Source of the DNA: a virus
Virus record (IMG/VR): IMGVR_UViG_3300032293_001419
Location: 1 to 29,039 of that record
Direction: 5' to 3' (one strand)
Length of the DNA stretch: 29,039 nucleotides
Shown here: piece by piece, positions 12,532-28,069 of the stretch
Layout of the letters: every line of letters starts with the position of its first letter
Numbering within the stretch: position 1 is the stretch's first letter
Made by a program: the position numbers and the translations under genes
Notes under the pieces: model-generated
What the model was told of the DNA's origin: nothing
Database searches by the model: none
The model's input: the letters and a program-made list of their open reading frames with translations, nothing else

Positions 12532-12927
12532 TCAAACGCCAGAATAATCCAGCTCGCCAACTAGCCTCACTGTAACAGTGCTTCGTCCATTGAACACACT
12601 TTCCACTTGCGGAGGCTCAGCGTATTCCCAGAGAATATTGGTAGGGGCCTGCACAACGCCTTTTAGCGTTGTGCTCATGCCAGAAAACACATCATCAGGA
12701 AGCGTGAAGCGGGAGTAGTTTCCGAATTGTCCGTAGTAGTGATCCAAAATAGTCTTTGTATTTGCGTCGCTAATATTCTCAAATTGCAAATCAATAAGAT
12801 GACCAAATGAGCGATTACCAAACACTCGCTTGACAGTGGCGCCCGAAAGTCCACGATAAGTTTTAGTGGGAAATTGCCCTGGCGAATAAGAGCGCCCTGT
12901 GGGGCGAATAGAAGGAAAGATTGCCAT
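12532..12927 (-). CDS. Distal/minor tail protein, M- or Dit-like candidate
   Basis: 131 residues directly after the tape measure gene, sharing one base with its stop. The start is FPSIRPTGRSYSPGQFPTKTYRGLSGATVKR, followed by FGHLIDLQFENISDANTKTILDHYYGQ and FSRFTLPDDVF. This is the architecture of small proteins after the tape measure, such as lambda M, that link the tape measure to the tip. It ends in a short beta-rich tail (STVTVRLVGELDYSGV). The family is not certain. Confidence 0.55.
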   Translation of the reverse strand: MAIFPSIRPTGRSYSPGQFPTKTYRGLSGATVKRVFGNRSFGHLIDLQFENISDANTKTILDHYYGQFGNYSRFTLPDDVFSGMSTTLKGVVQAPTNILWEYAEPPQVESVFNGRSTVTVRLVGELDYSGV

Positions 12928-15900
12928 TAGCGCATGCCGATACGGGAACGAGTGGAGGGACTTTGCTTAATTTTATCTAAGGTCATTGACATGCCTTGCT
13001 TAGCGCCACCTGCAATGGAAGCACGGCGAGTTTCTGCCATTGCCTGCTCTAATTGTTCGCGGCTAACGTATTCTACGCCATTGATCTTAGTGGTTTCAAA
13101 GTTCATGCTGAGAGAAGGTGCCTGAGGCATGCCTGGAGCGCCGCCTCCCATGAGATCGCGAGCGGAGCGTCCACCAAGTGACACGGGGATGGAACGCCCA
13201 TCAGGGAGGGGCACAACGGCTTCGTTGTACTTTCCTTCGCCCACAAGGCCGAGAGTGGGGCCACTGACAACGCCACCATTGGCAAAAGCCTTGAATCCCC
13301 CTTTCAGCACATTTCCATTTGCATTTGGAATTACTGGCATTTGGTATTGACGCATAGGAGCGAGTGTACTTTCTGATACGCCTGTTTTGGACATATCAGA
13401 ACTGGCGCCGCCAAGCCCAGCGAACAACTTCGCAAGGCCAATGGCAATGTAAGTGGCAATCATTTGCGAAGCTGCTTGAGACAAGGCTTGACCAACGCTT
13501 TGCAAGAAGCTGGCAAACACTTCCTTGGCAGTGGCAGTGCCAGTAATCATGCTCGTGATGCCCTCTGTGAGCATATTAGCAAAAGCTCCGCTTACTCCAC
13601 TAATTGCACTTTGCAAGCCTTCAAATACGCTTCTAAGTTGCATCGCGGAGGTTTCAATATTGGCGAGTTGAGTGGCGTAATCAGTGTCGCCTTGCGTTTG
13701 TGCCATCGTCTGTTCAAAAACGTTGGCAGCGCTTCCAGTGAAGCCTGCGCGTAATCCTCCGCCAATAATCCCCAGTCCAGCTTCAGCTTCCACCAAAGCC
13801 TGCTGCCTTTTAAGGGCCTCTTCATTTTTGTAATACTCTTCCCTTAGTCTTTGGTATTCATTAACCCTTTCGTGTACAGATTCTTTTTCTGCGTCACCAT
13901 AATCTTTTGTTAAACGTTGCACATCAAGATAAGCTTTTTGATCATAAGTAAGATCAATTAGGCCTTGTTTTAGATTTTCTCTTATCATTGCCTGCTCATC
14001 TAGTTGCTCATTGACGCCACTAATAGCATCCTTTATGGGCTGCTGAAGACCAAGCTCAATTTTTAATACTTCCACTCCATACTTGGCTCCAATATTGGCA
14101 ATCTTTTGCTCTTTTTCAGCTCGCAAATCCGCGAGCTTCAACTGCCTATCTGCGGCGCTTAAGTTATCGTCCGCTAATTTAATTTGAGCAACTCTTAATG
14201 CTTCTGTCACCGCCTTCTCTTCATAAAGTTTTTCAATCAATAATGATTGACGCTTTGCTTCTATTTCAGAGATTTCATCTCTAAGCATCTTATCTTCAAT
14301 TGCCACCAATTGCCTTTCTTTTTCAAGCGCCAAAGCATTGGTCGAATCTTGAATGTATTGATCAAGTTCTTTGCCTTTTTTAGTTTTTCCTGCTCCATCA
14401 CCTTCGCTGGGTGGCATTGGCATAATGGTCTGAGACGGTTTTGTTTGCGCCTCAATGCTTGCGGCAATGCGATTTGCAAGCGGAAGCTTTTCTTGAACTC
14501 CGGCAGCAGCCTTGCGCAGCCCTTGCAAACGAGCCTCGATAATCTTTGAAGCATTGACAAAATCGTTAATTTGCGGCTTACCAAGAATTGTCTTGCTCAC
14601 AAAGCTACCCATCCCCAACTCCTCCATGGTCTTGGCGGCCTCCGGGGTTAATTTCTTAGACGGACCAAGCGCACCTCCTGAAACAAACGGGCGAAGCTTT
14701 TCAAAGGTTTGAATTTGTTTTTGCAAATCATTTGCGGTATTTTTCAATGCTCCAACCGCTCCAGCATTTGCCATGCTCGAAATACCAGCAAGCATTTGCT
14801 TGGTGGACTGACCCACCCCGTCAATTGCCCCCTTGAGCATCATAAATCTTTCGATTAACAATGAAACTCCGACTAAAATTGCGGGCCCAGCAATTGCACG
14901 CAAGCCAACAGTTATAAGATTAAGAGCCGGTGCAACTCCTCTTAAAATTCCGGTTAATTTTGCAGCGGACACGCCTGTCGCGTCCATCAGTATTCGATAA
15001 GTTGTGAAGCGTTGCGATCCAGCAAGAAGACCAACATTTAACGCCGTCATTGAACCAATCACAGAGCGAATAACGCTAGTGAAAGCATTAAAAGCGATAC
15101 TTAAAGGCAGCGCGACAAGATATAATTTTGCCAAATATCCAACTACTGGATTTCCTGCGATTTGCAATAAGAGCTGAGCCACTTGACCCGCAATTGCACC
15201 AAACTGCTGAAAAATAGGAATAAGTCCCGTAACGTTATTTTTGATTCCTTCAATAGCGGGAAGCATATTTTGAAGCTGCAATGCAAACGCACCACCTTCG
15301 GCGGTACTGGCAGTTGCCCCCGTGAAAAACGCATTGAGTCCATCAGTGAGCTGCTTGATGCCATTCGTCATTGGAACAACAACTGTATTCAAGAACCCCA
15401 CTGCAACTGGCTCGAATGCCTCATAGAAAAGAGTCATTGAGTTTTGCATGCGATTCATTACACCTTGGAATGTAAGAGCAGCTCCTTCAGCGCCAGGACC
15501 AAATTCCTTATTCATTACGACAGTTACATTCTTCAGCAATGCAACCATTGCCTGCCCCTTGTAAGCGCCTTCTTCCAATGCAGCAGAGAAATCTTGAATG
15601 GCTTTTGGCCCCTTAAATCCTGCAGCTTCGGCAAATAATGCCATGGCTCCAGGAAGAACGTCACCCAACTGCCCCTTAAGTTCTTCGCTCATCACCTGAC
15701 CTTTGCTCGCCATTTGAGCAAATGCGTAATTCACGCGATCCACTTTGTCGGCGCTCATTCCGAAAGTGGCAGCAGCTTTTGTAATGCCAGTGAACAAATC
15801 TCTGATTTCATCGCCGCTAAAACCAGCAGGAGCCATGGAGGCATATAGTTTGGTAAAACCATCACGTGCCGATTGCAAAGGCACGTTGTATTTTTCCATG

Positions 15901-17561
15901 AGCCCAAGCAGAAGCTCATTAGAGGCTCGCGCTTCTTCTGCCGAAGGCGTCACTGCATTCAAGGTATTTCTAAAGCTTTGTAACTGCCCAACCGCTGCCC
16001 CCACTTGCGCCGGAAGATTTTGAATGAAAGCAAGTAATTTATATGCCTGCCCAAATAAAATCACTTGTTTGGTCGCAAAACCAAACTCCTCACCAAGTTC
16101 GCGGATGACGCCTGTTCCAGGAAGATTAACTCCTCCAATGGCGCGACCAAAAGCTCCAGCGCCGCCAAAGCCTCCAAATCCGCCACCTCCACTGGGAGGC
16201 TGCATGCCGCCGCCTGCTCCTCCAGCCATTGCTGGCTGAGGAACAATGGCACCGCCCGCCGCGTAGGGCACAATCGCACTGGTAGGACGCGCACCGCGAT
16301 AAGCGTAGCTGTAAGGCGATGGAGTGCGTCCTGCGCCACCACCAATTACATCCATGCCGCGCAAGTCCGAACGCATGCGGGCTTCACGTTCTCGACGTGC
16401 CATCATTTCGGCACGGGTTTCGCCGCCAACTGCACCTGCCGAATAAACACTAGGAGTACGACCAACGCCAGCAGGAAGCAAACCAGCGATGCGACTAGCG
16501 CCAAGCAAAGGCTGCTGTGATGCCGCAAGTCCAATGCGAACGCTTCTGATTTGTTGCTTAATAGAATCAACGAAAGCATAGGCAGCGCTTCGCATGATGC
16601 GCTGCATTTCATCGCTCAATCCAGTGGGTAAGTATTTTTGTGCGCCAAAAGCAGTACCAGGCAATGCAGAAGGAATAGTCCCAGGGGGTAGCGCTCTTCC
16701 AGTGGAAGACGGACCAATCGGGATATTGCGAGGCGGTATTGTTGCAGGAAAATTAACTCCAGGCAATGCGCGGCGCTGAGCAGCTTCAGCCCTAAGAGCA
16801 GCAGGATCAATACCTGCCATGCGAAACATGCCGCGAGCAATAGTGTCGAGCACCTTCATGCGTGTCCGCATTAGCCCTTCTACTGCATCAAAGGCTTTGT
16901 CCATTGAGGACATCATGCCCTGCTGGAAACCTTCTCCTACATTTTGTCCAATCTTTTTGAATTCACGAGAAGGCGATGCAATCCCAAGAACACTTTTTAC
17001 CGTCTTAATCAAAGAGTCGCCAAGATATTCAGCGGCTGCTCTCAGTTTTTCATCTTCACTTTTAAGGCCATTGAGAAGCCCTTTCACGCTATCGCTGCCA
17101 ACTGCCTCCAACGCTGCTACAGCAGAAGCTTTCGTCCTCGCCACTTCTTTGCTGTATTCAAGAATACCAGCTCTGGCCGCCGCGCGATAGAGTCTTTCTA
17201 CATCCTTGCTGCCAATGCCTCCCGATTGTGGGCCTTTTAATAATTGACCAAGCCCAAGCTGTTGATTGATTCCTTGCTGAGCCGCACTTCTGGATTTCCC
17301 TAGTTCGTCTAGGGCCTTGGCTAGCTTGGACGCATTCTCAATTTCAGCCTTTAAATTAGTGTTGACATTAAGTGTATAATTTCTGCGTCTGATATTTGCG
17401 CCAAGAGCATTAAGCTCATTTTGCACGCTACGCCTATCAAATCTAATTTGCACTGGCAATGGAGTGCCAGCAGCGGCCTGCCCAAGACCCGCTAATTGCT
17501 GTCTAAAGAAGGCTAGGTCAAGACTTACCTTAAGCTTCAGTTCGGCGTCTTGAGCTGCCAT
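12927..17561 (-). CDS. Tail tape measure protein (1544 residues)
   Basis: The largest gene, downstream of the G/GT chaperones. A segment near residues 520-680 matches the conserved tape measure domain: QSFRNTLNAVTPSAEEAR, then NVPLQSARDGFTKLYASM and GQVMSEELKGQLGDVLPGA. Several hydrophobic stretches (for example YLAKLYLVALPLSIAFNAF, AIAGPAILVGVSLLI and a C-terminal IATYIAIGLAKLFAGLG) are as expected for a protein injected into the host envelope. Long charged helices lie between residues about 1090 and 1300. The C-terminal GGVVSGPTLGLVGE..EAVVPLPDGRSIPV is frequent in phage tape measures. At roughly 0.15 nm per residue the length predicts a tail near 230 nm (inference). A Gly/Ala/Pro-rich linker lies around residues 430-480. 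Confidence 0.95.
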   Translation of the reverse strand: MAAQDAELKLKVSLDLAFFRQQLAGLGQAAAGTPLPVQIRFDRRSVQNELNALGANIRRRNYTLNVNTNLKAEIENASKLAKALDELGKSRSAAQQGINQQLGLGQLLKGPQSGGIGSKDVERLYRAAARAGILEYSKEVARTKASAVAALEAVGSDSVKGLLNGLKSEDEKLRAAAEYLGDSLIKTVKSVLGIASPSREFKKIGQNVGEGFQQGMMSSMDKAFDAVEGLMRTRMKVLDTIARGMFRMAGIDPAALRAEAAQRRALPGVNFPATIPPRNIPIGPSSTGRALPPGTIPSALPGTAFGAQKYLPTGLSDEMQRIMRSAAYAFVDSIKQQIRSVRIGLAASQQPLLGASRIAGLLPAGVGRTPSVYSAGAVGGETRAEMMARREREARMRSDLRGMDVIGGGAGRTPSPYSYAYRGARPTSAIVPYAAGGAIVPQPAMAGGAGGGMQPPSGGGGFGGFGGAGAFGRAIGGVNLPGTGVIRELGEEFGFATKQVILFGQAYKLLAFIQNLPAQVGAAVGQLQSFRNTLNAVTPSAEEARASNELLLGLMEKYNVPLQSARDGFTKLYASMAPAGFSGDEIRDLFTGITKAAATFGMSADKVDRVNYAFAQMASKGQVMSEELKGQLGDVLPGAMALFAEAAGFKGPKAIQDFSAALEEGAYKGQAMVALLKNVTVVMNKEFGPGAEGAALTFQGVMNRMQNSMTLFYEAFEPVAVGFLNTVVVPMTNGIKQLTDGLNAFFTGATASTAEGGAFALQLQNMLPAIEGIKNNVTGLIPIFQQFGAIAGQVAQLLLQIAGNPVVGYLAKLYLVALPLSIAFNAFTSVIRSVIGSMTALNVGLLAGSQRFTTYRILMDATGVSAAKLTGILRGVAPALNLITVGLRAIAGPAILVGVSLLIERFMMLKGAIDGVGQSTKQMLAGISSMANAGAVGALKNTANDLQKQIQTFEKLRPFVSGGALGPSKKLTPEAAKTMEELGMGSFVSKTILGKPQINDFVNASKIIEARLQGLRKAAAGVQEKLPLANRIAASIEAQTKPSQTIMPMPPSEGDGAGKTKKGKELDQYIQDSTNALALEKERQLVAIEDKMLRDEISEIEAKRQSLLIEKLYEEKAVTEALRVAQIKLADDNLSAADRQLKLADLRAEKEQKIANIGAKYGVEVLKIELGLQQPIKDAISGVNEQLDEQAMIRENLKQGLIDLTYDQKAYLDVQRLTKDYGDAEKESVHERVNEYQRLREEYYKNEEALKRQQALVEAEAGLGIIGGGLRAGFTGSAANVFEQTMAQTQGDTDYATQLANIETSAMQLRSVFEGLQSAISGVSGAFANMLTEGITSMITGTATAKEVFASFLQSVGQALSQAASQMIATYIAIGLAKLFAGLGGASSDMSKTGVSESTLAPMRQYQMPVIPNANGNVLKGGFKAFANGGVVSGPTLGLVGEGKYNEAVVPLPDGRSIPVSLGGRSARDLMGGGAPGMPQAPSLSMNFETTKINGVEYVSREQLEQAMAETRRASIAGGAKQGMSMTLDKIKQSPSTRSRIGMR

Positions 17562-17595: not shown

Positions 17596-18569
17596 TCATT
17601 GCTCTTGATTACGTCCAGCAAATCCTTTCATCTCATCAGCAAGCAGTGCAATAACACGTCCGTCCATTCTTCTTGTTTTCATCAAACGCTGAAGTACGAT
17701 CAAGCTTGCATCCGTAACGCCATCTTCTTTCTTGATTTGCTTCGTATCAAACGGCAAGAAATCCTCTGGTTTTACTTTACTCTTCTTGCCCGCCATCATA
17801 CCCGCCGCCATTGTGCCAAGTTTGGCAACGGCTACACTGCTGACATTATATTTTGCAATGTCATGACGATCAAGATATTTCAATGCACGCTTAACGTCAT
17901 CAAGCTTCTGGAGGCCAAAATTGTTGGCACTCCATCGCTCGTCTTTGAAGTCAGAAGCTGAAAGCCTGAAATAGATTTCGTTCCAATCTGTCAGGCTCTT
18001 AAGTTGCTGCCTAGCTCGCGCTTCAAGCTTTTCTGCTACTGAGGAGAATTCCTCTTCGTCGCTTTTTTTGCTTCTACGGCCTCCTGTGTCTCAGCATTCT
18101 GCTCTTCAGCAATGAATTCCACCACTTTCGCAATGGCCTTGCGCGGTAGGTTTTGGGTGTCTTCGATTTCCCAGTCGCCAAGATCTTGCCATTCGCCATC
18201 AATCAGACCTTGACCGCGAGAGCGAATGAAAGCAGTGACCATGCGAGCATTAGTAGCTTCCACCGATGAACCGCTTGTAATCATGCTCAGAGTCTCTTCA
18301 GTGAACTCAGAAAGCAGTTCGGCCTCAGTAATGGAACCACCGCCCTGCAGAAGCGCGAAAGCCTCATCAAGAGGGATCTCACGCGATGCGGCAATGCGCT
18401 TGGCAAGCTGAACGGCACGGATGGTAGCTTGACTTTGCAGCTTGCTGATTTCTTCTTGTTCAATGGATTCAGCAACAAGCCAACTACCATATTTCTTTAG
18501 GCGAATTTCGGGCAGCAGCTCAAAATAACCTTCGGTTTTGGTTTGAATCAGAAAGCTGTATTTGCTCAT
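17596..18569 (-). CDS. Tail assembly chaperone GT, -1 frameshift fusion
   Basis: A product made by slipping -1 on A7 at 18069-18063. The first 169 codons of the G frame are followed by 155 codons of the T frame, which begins SDEEEFSSVAEKLEARARQQ and continues through LTDWNEIYFRLSASDFKDERW to the stop at 17596, giving 324 residues. The T frame has no plausible start of its own: its first internal candidate is a TTG at 17883 without a ribosome-binding site, yet the sequence upstream of it is open and protein-like back to the slippery site. In lambda-type phages the G and GT proteins chaperone the tape measure protein in a fixed ratio. This gene lies directly before the tape measure, as expected. 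Confidence 0.88.
18036..18569 (-). CDS. Tail assembly chaperone G-like
   Basis: 177 residues from ATG at 18569; a TTG two codons earlier is in frame. It starts within the end of the preceding gene (50-nt overlap) and has no strong Shine-Dalgarno sequence, which suggests translational coupling. Acidic and helical, with FLIQTKTEGYFELLPEIRLKKYGSW at the start and a lysine/glutamate-rich end (VEAKKATKRNSPQ) after the slippery site. Its identity as the G protein rests on position before the tape measure and on the frameshift arrangement rather than on a sequence motif. About eight residues after the A7 run are replaced in the fusion product. Confidence 0.8.
   Translation of the reverse strand: MSKYSFLIQTKTEGYFELLPEIRLKKYGSWLVAESIEQEEISKLQSQATIRAVQLAKRIAASREIPLDEAFALLQGGGSITEAELLSEFTEETLSMITSGSSVEATNARMVTAFIRSRGQGLIDGEWQDLGDWEIEDTQNLPRKAIAKVVEFIAEEQNAETQEAVEAKKATKRNSPQ
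18041..18085 (-). promoter_or_regulatory. Programmed -1 ribosomal frameshift signal (G/GT)
   Basis: Read on the minus strand: an internal AGGAGG at 18085-18080, a 10-nt spacer, the slippery run A AAA AAA (18069-18063) followed by G and placed in the zero frame as GCA AAA AAA, an 8-nt spacer, then a GAGGA-ATTC-TCCTC hairpin (18054-18041). The order and distances reproduce the stimulatory layout known from E. coli dnaX. The shift leads into the open T frame. Confidence 0.88.
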
Positions 18570-18795
18570 GATCAAGAATGTTAAGCAATGCGTTGAACAC
18601 CTTCACTCGCTCATGAGAAGAACGAAATTCTGGTGGCACTTCAACCAGCATTGAATGATTGTCGTTGCCAATTCTAATGGTCATTTCTCTGCAGGAAATA
18701 AGGCACAATATGCCCACCTCCAATGCGGTGCCGTCAACAAGACAATTAATTGCATGCACTGTGTTATCCGCGCTCCACAGATAATCAATCTTCAT
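18520..18795 (-). CDS. Small protein of unknown function before the chaperones
   Basis: 91 residues. It overlaps the preceding gene by ATGA and the G gene by about 50 nt. It begins MKIDYLWSADNTVHAINCLV and contains a central EVPPEFRSSHERVKVFNALL helix-like segment. I recognise no family. The position between tail-completion genes and the tail chaperones suggests a tail assembly role, but nothing more can be said. Confidence 0.6.
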   Translation of the reverse strand: MKIDYLWSADNTVHAINCLVDGTALEVGILCLISCREMTIRIGNDNHSMLVEVPPEFRSSHERVKVFNALLNILDHEQIQLSDSNQNRRLF

Positions 18796-21451: not shown

Positions 21452-22360
21452 TCAGGCAGAGGCCTGCACGTAGATCATGCTCTTGGGATAGTACAGAGCA
21501 ACGCCACCCACGCGAGCATGAGCAGGAACGATGAATTCCAGACCACGCTGTTGAGGCGGGAACAGTTCCAGAGGCTGAGGGATGTGCAGTTGCACCTTCT
21601 CAGGGTCACGCTTGTACACAACCATACGGTCAGTGTTCAGCACGCTGTTGTCAGCTTCCAACTGGTTGATGGGTTCAACGTTGCGGATGTAGGGGTTGGT
21701 ACGCAGGAAGTACTCAAGCACGGTCACGTCCGAAGAATCGGAATTGCGAGTGGTGCTGATCTTGTTGTAATCTGCGTAGGACAGCAGGATGGTGTCGGGC
21801 TGTTCCTTCATCTTGGAGCCGTTGATGATGGCAGTCACGCCATAATTCAGCAGCTCAAGCATTTCCTGGGCAGTGGTGCCAGCAGTGGTGAACCACTTGT
21901 CAGCAGCAACCACGTCCACGGTGGAGTTGTTGAAGAAACCAGCGAGACCCACAGAGCTTTCGCCAAAGAAAGCAAGGCTTTCCACTTTCTCTTCATAGGC
22001 ACGACGCACAGCAGCAGCACGACGCTGCTCCAGGGCGATGTTGGCCATTTGAGCAGCACGCAGTTCCTGCACGGTGTAACCGAAGCTACCACCAAAGGAA
22101 CGGATGTTGATGCTCTTCTCCACTTGGCTGATGTCAGCGCGGGGCAGATCATCAGCAGCGTCCGCAATCAGACGGAACTCACCAGTGGAGTCCATGATGC
22201 GATAGGTGAAGGTCTGGGCACCAGGACCAGCTTCAGCAGTGACGGGCAGCACAGTGGGATATTTAATATCCGCATACTGCACTTCAAAAACTTGGGGGCG
22301 AATGTACTCAAGCTGACGCTCAAGGAACAGGCCCGCATCATCCATACGGAATTCAGACAT
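21452..22360 (-). CDS. Major capsid protein, DUF2184 type
   Basis: 302 residues from ATG at 22360, with AGGAGG just upstream; a longer in-frame ATG at 22411 lies inside the previous gene and is rejected. The TAEAGPGAQTFTYRIMDSTGEFRLIADAADDLPRADI region, the SFGYTVQELRAAQMANIALEQRRA helix and GLAGFFNN are as in DUF2184 family major capsid proteins of HK97 fold. The C-terminal domain has IPQPLELFPPQQRGLEF and a final VGGVALYYPKSMIYV. It follows the cement-like protein and the protease-scaffold gene and should be one of the most highly expressed proteins of the window. Confidence 0.9.
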   Translation of the reverse strand: MSEFRMDDAGLFLERQLEYIRPQVFEVQYADIKYPTVLPVTAEAGPGAQTFTYRIMDSTGEFRLIADAADDLPRADISQVEKSINIRSFGGSFGYTVQELRAAQMANIALEQRRAAAVRRAYEEKVESLAFFGESSVGLAGFFNNSTVDVVAADKWFTTAGTTAQEMLELLNYGVTAIINGSKMKEQPDTILLSYADYNKISTTRNSDSSDVTVLEYFLRTNPYIRNVEPINQLEADNSVLNTDRMVVYKRDPEKVQLHIPQPLELFPPQQRGLEFIVPAHARVGGVALYYPKSMIYVQASA

Positions 22361-22376
22361 TGTTAAGAGCCTCCTA

Positions 22377-22937
22377 TCAAGAATCAGCAGAGAGGGTGAA
22401 GCTCGGACCATTCAGCTCCAGAACAGCGAGACCGCTGCCAGTGGTGGAGGTGAGGAATCGAGCGTTAGCGAGGCGCACAGTTTTACCCGATGCAAAAGCA
22501 TGGGAGAACTGACCAGCCTTGCCAGTGCCGCTAGCGGAATACAGCACACGCACGGGCGATGCGGGAGTAACAGCACCAGTCACGTAGACGGCCACTGCAC
22601 CTTCGTTAGCCACGTTCATGGCTTGCTGATTCTTCACGCCAGGACGGTTGTTGCTGTCGAGAGCGGTTTCATCAACGTAGGTGAGGACGTTAACGCCCAG
22701 CACGGTGTCAGAAGCGCCAGAAATGGTGGTAGCAGAGTTGGCAACAGTACCGGCGGTGTTGTACACAGCCAGATTACCGAAAGGAACAACGGCGCCAGTC
22801 TGGTTGACGTAGGTGCCGATGGTGTTGTCGCGAATGTCAGACAGTTGACCTTCCAGCAGTGCAGTTTGCGCCAGAGCGTAGCTCTGTTGCACGCCACCAG
22901 CGGAGGCGGTGCCCGAAGCAGAGAAAGTTACGGCCAT
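22377..22937 (-). CDS. Head decoration / structural cement protein
   Basis: 186 residues, AGGAGG before the start. Typical of small cement proteins found next to the capsid gene: QTGAVVPFGNLAVYNTAGTVANSATTI, then LGVNVLTYVDET, GVKNQQAMNVANEGAVAVYVTGAVTPASPVRVLY and a Gly/Ser-rich end. These proteins bind the outer surface of the capsid and stabilise it (family knowledge). The gene starts 3 bp after the stop of the protease gene and ends 17 bp before the start of the capsid gene. Confidence 0.75.
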   Translation of the reverse strand: MAVTFSASGTASAGGVQQSYALAQTALLEGQLSDIRDNTIGTYVNQTGAVVPFGNLAVYNTAGTVANSATTISGASDTVLGVNVLTYVDETALDSNNRPGVKNQQAMNVANEGAVAVYVTGAVTPASPVRVLYSASGTGKAGQFSHAFASGKTVRLANARFLTSTTGSGLAVLELNGPSFTLSADS

Positions 22938-22939
22938 AA

Positions 22940-23557
22940 TTACTTAGCCTCCTTGGAGATGGAAAGGGGCTTCTTCCAAGCATTCTGCAGCGTGTCCATA
23001 TAGGACGAAGGTGCAGAAACGGGAGAAGCAATGGAAGCTACGGCTTTGCGCAGCTCATCAGTGGTAGCGGAATCTTTGCGACCCTCAGCGAGAGTATCAA
23101 ACATTGCTTGCACGTAGTCGTCGCTCTTCTCAGAAAGATCAAGCTCATCACCACGCACGGCCTTAATGGAATCAACCATCACTTCGCGGGCAGTTTTGCC
23201 AGCGAAGTCATAGGCGGAATCGAGAGCAGGCTTAGCCTTCTCAATGAGAGCAACACGCTCTTCCACCATGGAATCAAGATTGATTTCCTTGGCAGCAGCG
23301 AGTTCAGCGGAAAGCTCTTCCACTTGCTCAGCCAGAGCATCAGCGCGACCCTCGGCGGAATCGCACTTACCCTGCATTTCCTTTTGCATGGCGTCCATTT
23401 CTTCCTTCATTTTGGAAGCTTCGGACATCATGCCATCGTACTTTTTCTTCATGTCCTCGTAGGACATTTTGGCGTCTTCCCGTTCTTTAGTGATCGCCAG
23501 AGCTACGCTCTCGCTCACCTCGAACTCGGCGCCATCAAAATTGACCTTGGCAGTCAT
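22940..23557 (-). CDS. Nested capsid scaffold protein from an internal start
   Basis: In frame with the protease gene, ATG at 23557 begins MTAKVNFDGAEFEVSESVA and is preceded by GAGGA (23569-23565) at a 7-nt spacing, a much better ribosome-binding site than that of the gene's own start. It would give 205 residues, the coiled-coil scaffold without the protease domain. A nested scaffold is known for lambda (Nu3 in C) and many other phages. That it is made in this phage is inferred. Confidence 0.65.
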   Translation of the reverse strand: MTAKVNFDGAEFEVSESVALAITKEREDAKMSYEDMKKKYDGMMSEASKMKEEMDAMQKEMQGKCDSAEGRADALAEQVEELSAELAAAKEINLDSMVEERVALIEKAKPALDSAYDFAGKTAREVMVDSIKAVRGDELDLSEKSDDYVQAMFDTLAEGRKDSATTDELRKAVASIASPVSAPSSYMDTLQNAWKKPLSISKEAK

Positions 23558-24133
23558 AGATGGATCCTCATTATTGGGGATTAAAGATGGATCAGCGGCA
23601 TCTTGGCGATCAAGATGAAGCTTCACTTGCGGGCCAGCGCGGCCACGACGAACAACGGCGATGTGATTACCAAAGATTTCCTTTTGGATGCCATCGTAAT
23701 GCTCACCGCCATCAGTAACGCCAGGCGTAGGATCATAATTAACCCTATAGCCAGCGCTTACCTCACGAGCATCGCCACGCATGATGCGCTCAATGGTGTC
23801 TTGGTCGGTGATTGTCATCACCGCCTTAACAAAACCATTGTCGTACACCACTTCAGTGCCGCTAAATCCTACTTGGTAGTCTTTAGTATTTTCGGCATCA
23901 AGAAGAACGGGAGGATGCTCCGAAGTGATTGCCTTGCCCGCAAAGGAAGCAAGACTATCGGGAGAAGCCACTTCTGTTTCAGGCCTGTATTCACGACGCA
24001 CGGAGCCGTCAGCATCTGTGTAGAGCTGAATGCCAGTGCGAGCAATAGAGGCCCATGCCCGAAGATAACCTTCAGGCGTCACCTCATATTTCTCAATGGG
24101 AGAGAAATCGTAGCGACAAGATGTGGTGCTCAT
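22940..24133 (-). CDS. Prohead protease fused to scaffold (DUF2213 type)
   Basis: 397 residues. The N-terminal domain (about 1-178) has the DUF2213 plan: RAWASIARTGIQ.Y, AGKAITSEHPP with the likely catalytic His73, DAREVSAGYR with the likely catalytic Ser126, and GNHIAVVRRGRAGP. This agrees with a serine protease related to the HK97 prohead protease. The C-terminal part (about 193-397) is a long acidic, Met/Lys-rich coiled coil (MKKKYDGMMSEASKMKEEMD) typical of internal scaffolds. The second part can be made separately from an internal start. It clears the scaffold during maturation (family knowledge). The 5' end adjoins the regulatory region shared with the plus-strand HTH gene. Confidence 0.88.
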   Translation of the reverse strand: MSTTSCRYDFSPIEKYEVTPEGYLRAWASIARTGIQLYTDADGSVRREYRPETEVASPDSLASFAGKAITSEHPPVLLDAENTKDYQVGFSGTEVVYDNGFVKAVMTITDQDTIERIMRGDAREVSAGYRVNYDPTPGVTDGGEHYDGIQKEIFGNHIAVVRRGRAGPQVKLHLDRQDAADPSLIPNNEDPSMTAKVNFDGAEFEVSESVALAITKEREDAKMSYEDMKKKYDGMMSEASKMKEEMDAMQKEMQGKCDSAEGRADALAEQVEELSAELAAAKEINLDSMVEERVALIEKAKPALDSAYDFAGKTAREVMVDSIKAVRGDELDLSEKSDDYVQAMFDTLAEGRKDSATTDELRKAVASIASPVSAPSSYMDTLQNAWKKPLSISKEAK

Positions 24134-24196: not shown

Positions 24197-24481
24197 ATGC
24201 TGCTGCTCAAGAAAAGCGACATAGATGTACTTAAGATGCCGCATCAGCAAGCTCGTCTCCTGATTGCTTCTCGCATTAAAGAAGCCCGCCTCAATAGCGG
24301 GCTTTCTCAAAAGGACGTAGCTCAAGCTTTGCATACAAGCCAAAGTTCTTATTCACGAATGGAACGTGCCGAACTAGCTCCAGACTGCGTGCAAATTCGC
24401 ACTCTCAGTGGTCTCTATGGAATAAGCGTGCTATGGCTCATGGGCTATCCTTCGTTTATTCTCAACACGCGAAGAGATTAA
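24197..24481 (+). CDS. Small XRE-family helix-turn-helix regulator
   Basis: 94 residues from ATG at 24197; the frame is open far upstream but that part is antisense to the protease gene. Residues about 21-77 form an XRE/Cro fold: LIASRIKEARLNSGLSQKDVAQALHTSQSSYSRMERA, with helix 2 at LSQKDVAQAL and recognition helix TSQSSYSRMER, then LSGLYGISVLWLMGYP, the usual last helix. It is the only plus-strand gene in the late cluster. Its stop overlaps that of the gene at 24478 by 4 nt (convergent ends). It probably binds the palindrome 24176-24191, controlling itself and perhaps head genes. I see no integrase beside it, so a lysogeny role is not shown. Confidence 0.85.
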   Translation: MLLLKKSDIDVLKMPHQQARLLIASRIKEARLNSGLSQKDVAQALHTSQSSYSRMERAELAPDCVQIRTLSGLYGISVLWLMGYPSFILNTRRD

Positions 24482-24792
24482 TCATCGTCGTCGTCATCTT
24501 CTCCGCGAATGTCACGAAGCTGGTCTTCAATACCTTCCATGATGTACGATTTTGCCATTGCCTCAATTTCAAACGTGAGGAATTTGGTCGGCTCAAAATG
24601 AGGGTCAGGCTTGTCGTAAACGCTCATCACATAGATATGGGTTTCATCAAGGCGACCATTCTTGAAACATTGCTTCTCCACCAATTCCCATCGCGAAGTG
24701 TTCCGATGCTCATTGGAGGAAAGGATGGAAAGCGCCTGCAAAAGACCAATGCCTTCGTCTTCTTGCTCGATTACGCGCACGTATTCGCTCAT
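24478..24792 (-). CDS. Acidic small protein of unknown function
   Basis: 104 residues, ATGA overlap with the upstream frame. It starts MSEYVRVIEQEDEGIGLLQA, contains MSVYDKPDPHFEPTKFLTFEIEAMAKSYIMEG and ends in GEDDDDDD. No family is recognised. It is the last minus-strand gene before the HTH gene, with which it overlaps tail to tail. Confidence 0.55.
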   Translation of the reverse strand: MSEYVRVIEQEDEGIGLLQALSILSSNEHRNTSRWELVEKQCFKNGRLDETHIYVMSVYDKPDPHFEPTKFLTFEIEAMAKSYIMEGIEDQLRDIRGEDDDDDD

Positions 24793-25396
24793 TGATCTGT
24801 GTTGCGACTTTCCACCATTTTAATAATGCGATTTGCCCACGCCCTACCAGCGTCGCCTCCCCATAGAAGCCATGCAATATAGCCCGCGTCATCTTCGCCT
24901 CCGCTCTTGTTCTTCTCATGGCGAGAAAAGAATGCAGACATACGCTTGATCGTGGCATAACTAATCTTGCTGCCACCAGCCAAGTCACCCGCTCTGGCAA
25001 CACCACTCCCAATGCCTTGCTTGCCTGCTTCCTGCGTTGTCAAGCCTCCTTTGCCGTGTTTCTTGCGCAGCTCTAAACCACGTCGAGCGGCGCTTCTCAC
25101 AGCAGCAGGAGGGGCGAAACTTTCAGCGTCGCCCCTCAGCGCTTTTTTCCGCAGCTCCCATCCATTTCTTCCTCCTCTTCCTCTTCTTCTTCGCCAATCA
25201 TCTCTTTAAAGAAGCCCATGTAGTATTCATCGCTCATGTCTTCTTTCGGCTTGCGCGTCATGCCAGCTTCGGACAGCGCAATTGCTAGTGCCTGCTTCGG
25301 GCTCTTTACTGCCTCGCCACTGCTACTCTTCAACTTGCCCCCTTTGAACTCGCGCATTACCTTAGCAATCTTTGCCTGCTTTTCCTTTTTGGTCAT
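24789..25396 (-). CDS. Probable -1 frameshift fusion: DUF6496 domain plus phage domain RRGLELRKKHGKGG
   Basis: Reading the DUF6496 frame for 85 codons and slipping -1 on A AAA AAG (25148-25142) continues into ALRGDAESFAPPAAVRSAAR and on to the stop at 24789 (202 residues). The second domain (RRGLELRKKHGKGGLT, YATIKRMSAFFSRHEKN, AGYIAWLLWGGDAGRAWANRI) is one I know from many phage proteins, usually preceded by F.PP..VR.aA; I cannot give its Pfam name. Here that F.PP..VR part is coded upstream of the only start candidate of the separate frame, a GTG at 25100 without a Shine-Dalgarno sequence. The conserved sequence is thus readable only by entering from the upstream frame. A real or sequencing frameshift is the alternative. 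The position in the late cluster suggests a virion-associated or assembly protein. Confidence 0.6.
25109..25160 (-). promoter_or_regulatory. Putative programmed -1 frameshift signal
   Basis: Minus strand: a GGGAG at 25159-25155, then six bases, then A AAA AAG (25148-25142), the same heptamer as in dnaX and in the correct zero-frame phase (GGA AAA AAG), a 4-nt spacer, then a 9-bp GC-rich stem GAGGGGCGA / TCGCCCCTC (25137-25129 with 25117-25109) with an 11-nt loop. The zero-frame stop TGA (25138-25136) lies at the base of the stem. Confidence 0.6.
25136..25396 (-). CDS. DUF6496 protein, zero-frame product
   Basis: 86 residues. AKVMREFKGGKLKSSSGEAVKSPKQALAIALSEAG is the DUF6496 pattern (K.M.EFK.GkLKsgsG..VKsrkQAiAIAlSEAG), a small basic domain seen in phages and bacteria with no established function. 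After it come a short helix (DEYYMGFFKEMIG), nine glutamates, and MDGSCGKKR just before the stop. The final KKR is coded by the slippery heptamer, so this is the unshifted product of the -1 frameshift cassette. Confidence 0.75.
   Translation of the reverse strand: MTKKEKQAKIAKVMREFKGGKLKSSSGEAVKSPKQALAIALSEAGMTRKPKEDMSDEYYMGFFKEMIGEEEEEEEEEMDGSCGKKR
25166..25192 (-). repeat. Poly-glutamate coding run (GAA/GAG)9
   Basis: Nine consecutive Glu codons in the DUF6496 gene, of the (TTC/CTC)n form on the plus strand. This purine-rich tract (minus) contains AGGAGG-like sequences about 20-30 nt before the A-rich slippery site and may influence ribosome pausing. Length variation between relatives is likely. 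Confidence 0.7.
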
Positions 25397-25423: not shown

Positions 25424-26140
25424 TCAATGGATGAATCCTATCGGAGCAGTGGCAATATTCATGTCAGGAAAAAGTTTGTCGCGATACAAGACCATGCCGG
25501 TGATGAGACGCTCAGCAATAAAGGCCAACGCCCGCTTGTCGTAGCCTCCAATGCGAAGAAATTGCTCTTCATGCTTATGCCAAATAGGAGCAAGCGCAAC
25601 AAACAATGCGCTCATAAATTGTTTGTATTGAACATTACTCCCTCGCGCCATATTGCAGCCAATGAAGCTATTTTGCTTCCAAATGGCATCAATTTCTCCC
25701 CTTGAAAAGATCCAGCTTCCTGAGTCTGCAATTTCCCTGGTGATAGCAGGGGCATCAAAAGCGGAATGTCCGCCATAAAACTGCTGCTCTAGCGTGCAAT
25801 TAAACAATGCAGGCTCTGGAAAATACAGCGTATTCTCGTCGTACCATTGATCTCCTGGTTCCAGCCAGTTGCGCCTGTATTGCGCATTGCCAATGTTTTT
25901 CTCGTTCGCATTGAGAATCATCCAAGAAATACAAGACAGTTCTCCCCATCGACTATTAAGCCGCGAAAGGGAAGCATTCTCATCATCAAACACATAACCT
26001 TGTGAGCGGAGCGCTTCACGCTCCTCGCCAGATAAAGCATGTGCTCCTCCCATGATGGGAACAATGCGAGAACGGGCCTCATAACGCACTGCCTCGCTAG
26101 GGATGCACACGGCATAAATGGTGCAGTCAGACGGTTGCAT
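25424..26140 (-). CDS. DUF4422-type glycosyltransferase-like protein
   Basis: 238 residues, Shine-Dalgarno GAGGA 6 nt before ATG at 26140. DUF4422 pattern: CTIYAVCIPSEAV near the start, DDENASLSRLNSRWGELSCISW, then NEKNIGNAQYRRNW, the counterpart of the family's iGl.HYRR motif, and a C-terminal GSNVQYKQFMSALFVALAPI followed by YDKRALAFIAERLITGMVL, as in the family end (R.lafi.ERl.t). DUF4422 proteins occur in O-antigen and exopolysaccharide clusters and are thought to be glycosyltransferases. It overlaps the upstream gene by 14 nt. A role in modifying virion or host sugars is inferred. Confidence 0.75.
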   Translation of the reverse strand: MQPSDCTIYAVCIPSEAVRYEARSRIVPIMGGAHALSGEEREALRSQGYVFDDENASLSRLNSRWGELSCISWMILNANEKNIGNAQYRRNWLEPGDQWYDENTLYFPEPALFNCTLEQQFYGGHSAFDAPAITREIADSGSWIFSRGEIDAIWKQNSFIGCNMARGSNVQYKQFMSALFVALAPIWHKHEEQFLRIGGYDKRALAFIAERLITGMVLYRDKLFPDMNIATAPIGFIH

Positions 26141-26843
26141 AAACTTTCCTCGCGGCCCACAGCTCGTTGTAATTGTTTACGCCCTTAGCCCCAAGACCAG
26201 TAAGATCGCCGCCTCCTGCAGGCTTGCTCCAGGCCATGATCGTGCCATCGGGAAGTACGAACGCCCGGTTCTTCTGGTCATGCGTAGGCGTTAGCTCAAG
26301 ATAGTCGCCGTAGACGAAATTAGCTTGGCTTCCATTCGCAGCAAGCGCCTTGCCTAGAAGTGTGGGACCAGTGGGGCACAATGGCGTGATGCCATAGTAT
26401 TGCTCCACGCAATTTGCCACGATCATTTCAATGGCAGTTTGTAGCGCTGCATTGTTTGGTTTGGAATAAAGCACAGTCGTTGCGCAAGCCCAGCTTGTGT
26501 AACTAAAGCGCTGAATATCACGAAAAGCTAAAAATTCAATGCGATCTCCAAGGTCCACTGCATTAAACGCTCTCACGCCAATATCAAAGTACCAGCCCCC
26601 AAGTTTATTCAGCAAACAAAAGCGCCCCAAATCAGCCCTGTAAGAGAATGGAGTGAGCGTGTCATAGGCCCAAACCACTTCTTCCCCATAGTTATCAGCA
26701 ATAAAAGAACGCAATTCTTCATTGCTATAAATCTTGTGTTGTGCTTCAGGAAAACAGGCATCAATAGTGCTGGTGGCGTACTTCAGGAAAGGGCTAAGCT
26801 CTTCTGAAGGATTATTAGAAAGAAAGATTTGTGAGATGTGCAT
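26127..26843 (-). CDS. GT32/DXD-like glycosyltransferase
   Basis: 238 residues. It has the layout of 'glycosyltransferase sugar-binding region containing DXD motif' proteins: a start MHISQIFLSNNPSEELSPF, a middle FSYRADLGRFCLLNKLGGWYFDIGV, where the R.sDl.R..lL...GG.Y.D.D signature is recognisable, and a region with WACATTVLYSKPNN. The DXD position reads D87-I-G89, so the second acidic residue is missing; metal binding may differ or activity may be weak. It sits between the GT4 and DUF4422 genes and would transfer a sugar from a nucleotide donor (family knowledge). Confidence 0.75.
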   Translation of the reverse strand: MHISQIFLSNNPSEELSPFLKYATSTIDACFPEAQHKIYSNEELRSFIADNYGEEVVWAYDTLTPFSYRADLGRFCLLNKLGGWYFDIGVRAFNAVDLGDRIEFLAFRDIQRFSYTSWACATTVLYSKPNNAALQTAIEMIVANCVEQYYGITPLCPTGPTLLGKALAANGSQANFVYGDYLELTPTHDQKNRAFVLPDGTIMAWSKPAGGGDLTGLGAKGVNNYNELWAARKVYATV

Positions 26844-26845
26844 GA

Positions 26846-28069
26846 TCAGACAATTTTTGCGGGAGTACCAAAGCCCTTGAATTCAGGCTCGACAGGTTTT
26901 GCAACAAGCGTTTCGCTCACTGCATCTTTAAGCTGCTGCTGAATATAAGGCCATGTGAAGGGCTCCTCATGGAGACGCTTGTAGCACCATTGCCCATGCT
27001 GCTTCAAAATGTCGCGATTCTCGTAATAGTAAGTGAGGATGTCTGCTGCGCATTCAGGGTCTGGCAACAATCGCTCAAGCCCATAGTTCCTATCAGTCTC
27101 ACTGGCATTGCATTCAATGCGCGGCATCTCATCAAAGATTTCAGCCAGGCTTGTGTGGTCAGGAACCACTTGCGCCACGCCAGTGGAGCCATGCTCCGAG
27201 TTGACCAAGCCCCATCCCTCGCCAATGCAAGTGTTAATGCCAATATCGGCAGCGTTATACACTTGGTTTAATTGTTCGATGGTAAGGCAATTATCTACGG
27301 AGAAATGTGGACTTGTCAAAATAAGCTTACCAGTGGCATCAAAGCCTTCGTCACGTGCCACGCGCTTAAAGAGCGGCACAAGTTCCCATCCCAAATCTTT
27401 GCTCCCCATGTTTAGCCATAGTCGGGCGTCATCTTTGTCTTTGGCAAACTTGATGAACGCCTTAATCGTCAAATCAATGCGCTTGCGTGGTTGGTTCCTA
27501 TTGCCATTAAACACGACAAACACATCTTCTGGCACGCCAAGCTTTTTGCGGCATTCTTTCTTGTCCATGGGAAAGAATTGCGTAAAGTCGGTGCCATGGC
27601 CAATGATGCGCACAGGCTTTGTATAGCCCATCAGCTCCAGCTCTTTCTTGGCAAACTCCGTGTAAGTTGCCAAACCGTCCCATTCCATCATGGGCTTAGC
27701 CAGGTCCGGAAACAAACCGTACGAATCAATGGGCGTATAAACGAACCATTTGAAGCCAAGTTGCTCCTTAAAAGGCTTTGCCTTTTCCCATAGATTCAAG
27801 GCAATCCAGATGTCGTTGGTCACCCATACCAAATCAGGCTTAAAAGATTGAATGACGCTTGCAATGCGATGGGATCCAAAAGGATCGTTCCCGTGTAGCA
27901 TCGCGGGATAAACTGTGTAGCTTTTTGCTTCTGGATGGGGGTCGCCATGGTAGTTAACTGCCAATACTGCCACTTCATGCTCTTCTGCTAATGCAGGGAG
28001 CAAATATTGCGCCACTCGTCCAAAGCCTGTTTCTACAAAAGCATCGCCACAGTAAAGAATGCGAGCCAT
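26846..28069 (-). CDS. Glycosyltransferase family 4 (GT-B fold)
   Basis: 407 residues, AGGAGA before ATG at 28069. Signature features: ILYCGDAFVETGFGRVAQYL (N-terminal acceptor domain), FNGNRNQPRKRIDLTIKAF (residues about 188-205), and ADIGINTCIGEGWGLVNSEHG with the E-x7-E pair E284/E292 of GT4 nucleotide-sugar binding. The length is usual for the family. First gene of the minus-strand cluster, starting 61 bp from a divergent plus-strand gene. With the next two genes it forms a sugar-transfer module; the target (host surface polysaccharide or virion) is unknown. Confidence 0.88.
   Translation of the reverse strand: MARILYCGDAFVETGFGRVAQYLLPALAEEHEVAVLAVNYHGDPHPEAKSYTVYPAMLHGNDPFGSHRIASVIQSFKPDLVWVTNDIWIALNLWEKAKPFKEQLGFKWFVYTPIDSYGLFPDLAKPMMEWDGLATYTEFAKKELELMGYTKPVRIIGHGTDFTQFFPMDKKECRKKLGVPEDVFVVFNGNRNQPRKRIDLTIKAFIKFAKDKDDARLWLNMGSKDLGWELVPLFKRVARDEGFDATGKLILTSPHFSVDNCLTIEQLNQVYNAADIGINTCIGEGWGLVNSEHGSTGVAQVVPDHTSLAEIFDEMPRIECNASETDRNYGLERLLPDPECAADILTYYYENRDILKQHGQWCYKRLHEEPFTWPYIQQQLKDAVSETLVAKPVEPEFKGFGTPAKIV

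Follow-up and report, generated by a model that had tools for sequence, protein, structure and literature searches.

The window analysed here is the whole of virus record IMGVR_UViG_3300032293_001419 (29,039 nt, positions 1 to 29,039), and the frameshift cassette proposed below lies on its minus strand (Table 1). The cassette opens with a short reading frame whose product matches DUF6496 in a Pfam profile search (PF20106, 35.1 bits with a cut-off of 24) and ends in an acidic run followed by ...DGSCGKKR*. The heptamer A AAA AAG, which the original prediction had placed in the phase of this zero frame, is indeed found there. That prediction also put a 9-bp stem immediately behind the heptamer. 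The nine base pairs are present, formed by GAGGGGCGA (25137-25129) and TCGCCCCTC (25117-25109), but "immediately" has to be corrected, as the 4-nt spacer CGCT (25141-25138) intervenes. The zero-frame stop does overlap the base of the stem, as was claimed. From the slip onwards the -1 frame, beginning with ALRGDAESFAPPAAVRSAARRGLEL..., stays open until the TGA ending at 24789, and the conserved phage domain expected in it is recognized by the phrog_2859 profile (E 9.3e-17, profile positions 164-265 of 740). The computed trans-frame product has 202 aa and 21.9 kDa. When the downstream frame is taken as a separate ORF, its sole listed start is GTG at 25100, without a Shine-Dalgarno sequence, just as had been noticed from the sequence alone.

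Table 1. Features of the cassette and of the neighboring head genes in the window
Feature	Position	Strand	Basis or remark
Zero-frame ORF, 86 aa, 9.7 kDa short product	25136..25396	-	DUF6496 core aa 4-44, then acidic tail EEEEEEEEEMDGSCGKKR
Slippery heptamer A AAA AAG, zero-frame phase	25142..25148	-	Last zero-frame codons GGA AAA AAG CGC TGA
Zero-frame stop TGA, overlaps stem base	25136..25138	-	Sequence
Putative stimulatory stem-loop, 9 bp, 11-nt loop, 4 nt 3´ of heptamer	25109..25137	-	Fold and covariation
-1 frame, 117-aa domain (phrog_2859 region)	24789..25142	-	Probably reached only by frameshift
Next gene, 104 aa, no assigned function	24478..24792	-	ATG overlaps -1 frame stop (ATGA)
Head maturation protease (DUF2213 / phrog_530)	22940..24133	-	Profile matches
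Major capsid protein	21452..22411	-	PF09950 E 2e-59, phrog_264

Downstream on the minus strand, the cassette is followed by the 104-aa gene, the DUF2213 head maturation protease, a cement protein and the major capsid protein. A position near the head genes and outside the tail G/GT case, as originally proposed, is thus borne out by the protease and capsid genes downstream and by the DUF6496 and phrog_2859 matches. Upstream of the cassette (25424-28069, minus strand) there are three genes with glycosyltransferase-type matches, namely DUF4422, a sugar-binding DXD region (just under the cut-off) and Glycos_transf_1. A glycosyl transferase is also present in phage S-CBS4, between its portal and DUF6496 genes.

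Eight heptamers of the types A AAA AAG, G GGA AAG or C CCA AAG occur in the 29,039-nt window, and a single one of them, at 25148-25142, lies at the end of a long zero-frame ORF with a stop close behind it and the -1 frame open. Such a layout, with no stem required, arose once per strand in 8 of 300 first-order Markov sequences. The minimum free energy of the 52-nt RNA region is -26.0 kcal/mol, compared with -13.2 +/- 2.6 in shuffled sequences (z = -4.9). What decisively places the cassette beyond chance is its conservation, with a canonical heptamer at the same position in all 128 two-frame relatives described below. A scan for all X XXY YYZ heptamers also returned A AAA AAA at 18069, within 18036-18575 of the minus strand, behind which the -1 frame is open for 157 codons. 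This site lies just upstream of a large ORF (12927-17561) which is probably the tape measure, and it is itself the probable frameshift site of the tail chaperone G/GT. The window would then have two -1 sites, in agreement with the original prediction, which had called the present one the second.

Scans of IMG/VR gave 427 and 528 relatives, other scans followed, and 153 distinct loci were extracted, nearly all from IMG/VR, plus that of phage S-CBS4. The latter, an isolated Synechococcus (cyanobacterial) virus within the cassette's virus family, was matched by tblastn at 81% identity; its gp018 and gp019 (HQ698895.1, 12873-13525) are annotated in GenBank as two hypothetical proteins. The loci comprise 128 with two frames, 23 in-frame fusions and two (L112 and L135) with single-base indels at the slip site, which were set aside as likely errors. 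In three loci altogether one base is extra or missing at the slip site: L055 has gained one A and is in frame, L112 has one A fewer, and L135 is the third. These are likely errors, or else fresh events of fusion or loss.

An X XXY YYZ heptamer is kept in 128 of 128 two-frame loci, at an identical distance from the downstream domain. Only three types are found, A AAA AAG (92 loci), G GGA AAG (29) and C CCA AAG (7). In a published comparison of all 64 heptamers in E. coli, with stimulators present, these three are reported to be the most efficient (PMC4066793). The expected conservation of A AAA AAG together with the stem applies to the heptamer class and to the stem, which covaries, whereas A AAA AAG itself is restricted to the 92 loci. 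Heptamer type tracks the tail of the short peptide: CGKK or C[KR][AG]Y...KK goes with A AAA AAG, GK tails with G GGA AAG and PK tails with C CCA AAG. On a quick tree, about 15 parsimony changes occur among the three types. The zero-frame stop keeps the same offset in 120 of the 128 loci, being 3 nt earlier in seven and later in one. As for an upstream Shine-Dalgarno-like stimulator, GGGAG precedes the heptamer by 6 nt in the window and is not conserved among the relatives compared. Phages of the clade swap heptamer, tail and upstream modules and keep the slip site. For example, an extra N-terminal Cys-rich module (LCSNCGHY...GGWC...CTAHRTC.DW) stands ahead of DUF6496 in L080 (2285-2995), L454 (1860-2501) and L458 (1593-2501), the last of which also has a further stretch inserted after DUF6496; the slip cassette is retained in all three.

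The stem covaries. In the two-frame loci its four G-C core pairs are always formed (100%), compared with 100, 32, 91 and 68% in the in-frame fusions without heptamer. At pair -16/0, C-G, A-U and U-G replace one another; its two bases are the free third position of a Gly codon and position 1 of codon 10 (Ala/Ser). This pair is formed in 93 of 100 distinct sequences, the permutation mean being 50, and none of 5000 permutations reached 93. An independent covariation count on 49 sequences gave 23 double-change cells versus 11 in shuffles, with 0 of 500 as high. The covariation score is 0.176 as opposed to 0.004-0.086 for slid structures, and RNAalifold recovers seven of the stem pairs unaided. Pairing is not strict throughout: about 7% of distinct sequences have a mismatch at the inner stem pair, and conservation is lower for the two outer pairs (58% and 91%). 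All 128 two-frame loci use AGG for the Arg encoded in the 5´ arm, while the 22 fused ones use six different codons. Synonymous diversity over the whole cassette is only mildly reduced (observed/expected 0.69 versus 0.84 downstream), and so our argument rests on the Arg codon and on covariation instead.

The relatives were also checked for natural joining of the two domains, and 23 of the 153 loci carry DUF6496 and the downstream domain in one reading frame, 22 of them without the heptamer and one (L055) by virtue of its extra A. In the 22, stem pairing has decayed too. Eight changes of state between fused and two-frame loci are counted on a quick tree. A stringent phylogenetic sign test leaves four supported independent pairs, with none in the opposite direction; this is too few for significance, and with four strict pairs we do not claim phylogenetically corrected significance for each comparison. 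The 22 fusions appear to make only the long form, and so the short form or the ratio seems dispensable there and two products are not required throughout the family.

We propose that the cassette is very probably a programmed -1 ribosomal frameshift giving the 86-aa and the 202-aa products. Most ribosomes would translate the DUF6496 gene to its TGA and release the 86-aa protein. In the others, the lysyl-tRNAs paired with AAA and AAG of the heptamer would slip back by one base, stimulated by the stem-loop 4 nt downstream, and these shifted ribosomes would read the 117-aa -1 frame into the fusion. The result would be an untagged and a tagged DUF6496 protein in a ratio set by the rate of slipping. 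The locus combines an in-phase X XXY YYZ before the zero-frame stop, an open -1 frame and a covarying downstream RNA structure, and it is conserved, with natural fusions as its alternative. The central claim, that DUF6496 is joined to the downstream domain by frameshift, is strongly supported by a heptamer varying only among efficient types, by the covarying stem and by the existence of fused relatives. Among loci long enough to show it, the ATGA overlap between the stop of the domain and the next start (24789-24792, minus strand) is present in 107 of 126 with two frames and in all 21 fusions. The 104-aa gene may therefore be translationally coupled, and if so, it would be fed by the shifted ribosomes.

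Three other explanations of the layout were weighed. Runs of six to eight A are known sites of transcriptional slippage, and RNA polymerase might add or drop an A in the A6 run so that normal translation yields the fusion. The extra A of L055 and the missing one of L112 would fit such a process. It nevertheless seems very improbable to us, because 36 two-frame relatives have GGGAAAG or CCCAAAG, where identical runs do not exceed 3-4, and they keep both the layout and the stem; further, X XXY YYZ in exact codon phase with a covarying stem fits tandem slippage of tRNAs. Even less probable are two separate genes, as S-CBS4 gp018 and gp019 are annotated in GenBank, with the domain translated from GTG 25100 or through reinitiation behind the TGA. 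The Val codon at this position is GTA in 58 two-frame loci, GTG in 41, GTT in 27 and GTC in two, and no other start is conserved among the 128 before the Met at codon 69 of the domain. The protein sequence between the slip and the GTG is conserved, a separate and well-started downstream gene was sought in relatives and none was found inside the clade, and the heptamer and stem would be left unexplained. In relatives from outside the clade, with 61% identity or less, the domain starts at an ATG of its own or forms an in-frame part of head proteins, without DUF6496 or frameshift. Finally, a broken gene or sequencing error, in which a single fused gene of the kind seen in relatives lost a base, is untenable on the comparative data and its probability practically nil, as 128 distinct loci share the same phase and so exclude one extra or missing A, the natural fusions except L055 differ by whole-codon linkers and not by one base, and both frames keep conserved protein sequence.

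Ribosomal frameshifting thus remains the preferred reading, and it can be set beside several known systems. The dnaX gene of E. coli (tau/gamma) uses A AAA AAG with a 3´ stem, and its frameshift yields the shorter product. The cassette shares with it the heptamer, the stem and the production of zero-frame and -1 proteins from one start; here, however, the frameshift product is the longer one, and the proteins are unrelated. In the G/GT tail chaperone of phage lambda, some of the product gains a further domain through a -1 frameshift (PMC5009743). The likeness lies in a -1 frameshift in a phage morphogenesis gene that adds a domain to part of its product, but the present gene belongs to the head region rather than the tail, its proteins are unrelated, and the probable G/GT equivalent is the separate site at 18069. 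Nor does the gene lie just upstream of the tape-measure gene or show homology to G/T. In T3/T7 gene 10, Lactobacillus A2 and Listeria PSA/A118, a frameshift near the end of a head gene produces an extended minor protein (PMC5009743). The extension at the end of a head-region gene is common to them and our cassette; theirs, though, lengthens the major coat protein, in many cases by an Ig-like domain, whereas the gene lengthened here is small, lies upstream of the protease, does not encode a coat protein and gains a domain predicted to be all-helical. The zero-frame product is the 86-aa DUF6496 protein, and the capsid gene is a different one (21452-22411). The IS3 family, in which the same three heptamers are the most efficient (PMC4066793), resembles the cassette in heptamer class and downstream stem structure. 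It differs in that no transposase is encoded here, and the stimulator of IS911 is a more complex, three-way structure (PMC5009743). Our literature search, with many subscription papers outside it, found no description of frameshifting in S-CBS4-like phages and no paper mentioning DUF6496. Frameshifting in this gene thus appears to be new, although the mechanism is already known.

The downstream domain, which no Pfam model matches, is found in other contexts. According to Pfam matches of its partners, it is fused to XkdF protease and to Peptidase_S78 plus Phage_capsid polyproteins, and it occurs in portal-MuF proteins. Three portal families (PF04860, PF05136 and PF06074) carry it at the C-terminus; on prohead protease and protease-capsid polyproteins it is N-terminal, and it also exists as a small gene of its own. 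Of 92 distant relatives, 41 have it at the N-terminus, 18 at the C-terminus and 10 in the middle, and in the other 23 it stands alone. Fusions to portal families, prohead protease-capsid polyproteins and DUF6582 proteins are seen in L412, L418, L427, L477, L508 and L521. The domain alone is predicted as all-helical (pLDDT 89.9; 83.9 for the fusion model), and its structural neighbors in BFVD include prohead proteases, XkdF and portals. Foldseek against PDB gave no significant match for the fusion or the domain model, and PDB sequence profiles and NCBIfam searches gave no match. VIA-align against PDB reached Z of at most 3.5 (fusion) and 4.4 (domain), values uninformative for helical models, so that a known fold is possible. 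The other half of the long protein also has relatives elsewhere. Stand-alone DUF6496 or DUF6496-like mini-genes lie directly upstream of the portal gene in Vibrio phages (L249 and L251, both at 2492-2644; the portal is annotated in the former and likely in the latter), and an unannotated match is present in a Klebsiella phage (L252, 1793-1918).

What the long form might do is a more tentative matter. Portals point their C-termini, and HK97-type capsid polyproteins their N-termini, into the interior of the prohead. We therefore infer a module of head interior or head assembly, and we hypothesize, giving the idea somewhat less than even weight, that some copies of the DUF6496 protein may receive such a module through the frameshift. 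The grounds for this role are gene fusions and gene position. Another possibility, one we hold in real though lesser regard, is that the frameshift is genuine and the long protein otherwise used, for example in DNA binding or host takeover. Both globular parts of the long protein are strongly basic (pI about 10), the domain is also found on ParB/sulfiredoxin-, HAD- and Dps-named proteins among the BFVD neighbors, and there are weak, non-significant matches resembling lambda repressor. Two things speak against such a use: unrelated phages repeatedly carry the domain on their portal, protease and capsid proteins, and the genes for protease, cement and capsid proteins follow shortly downstream of the cassette. 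Going further with the head-module reading, one could imagine the cassette as a ratio switch that adds a general head-targeting domain to an exchangeable small cargo, with the third gene fed only by frameshifted ribosomes, thereby fixing the stoichiometry of three proteins for head assembly. This last scheme is speculative and we regard it as unlikely.

Taken together, the comparative evidence strongly supports -1 frameshifting in a gene that is neither the tail chaperone nor the major coat protein, and it does so for a clade of phages that numbers several hundred contigs in public data. The clade presents a natural experiment: heptamers change only within the three most efficient classes, and fusions without the heptamer have lost the stem, so that evolution itself provides a clean test of the requirements of a bacterial frameshift site. 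The annotation of these phages is corrected as well; if our reading is right, S-CBS4 gp018/gp019 should be re-annotated as one frameshifted pair, and the metagenome relatives likewise. Beyond this clade, the cassette draws attention to an uncharacterised domain that many unrelated phages carry on their portals, prohead proteases and capsid polyproteins; it is probably a widespread phage head module and merits its own family model.
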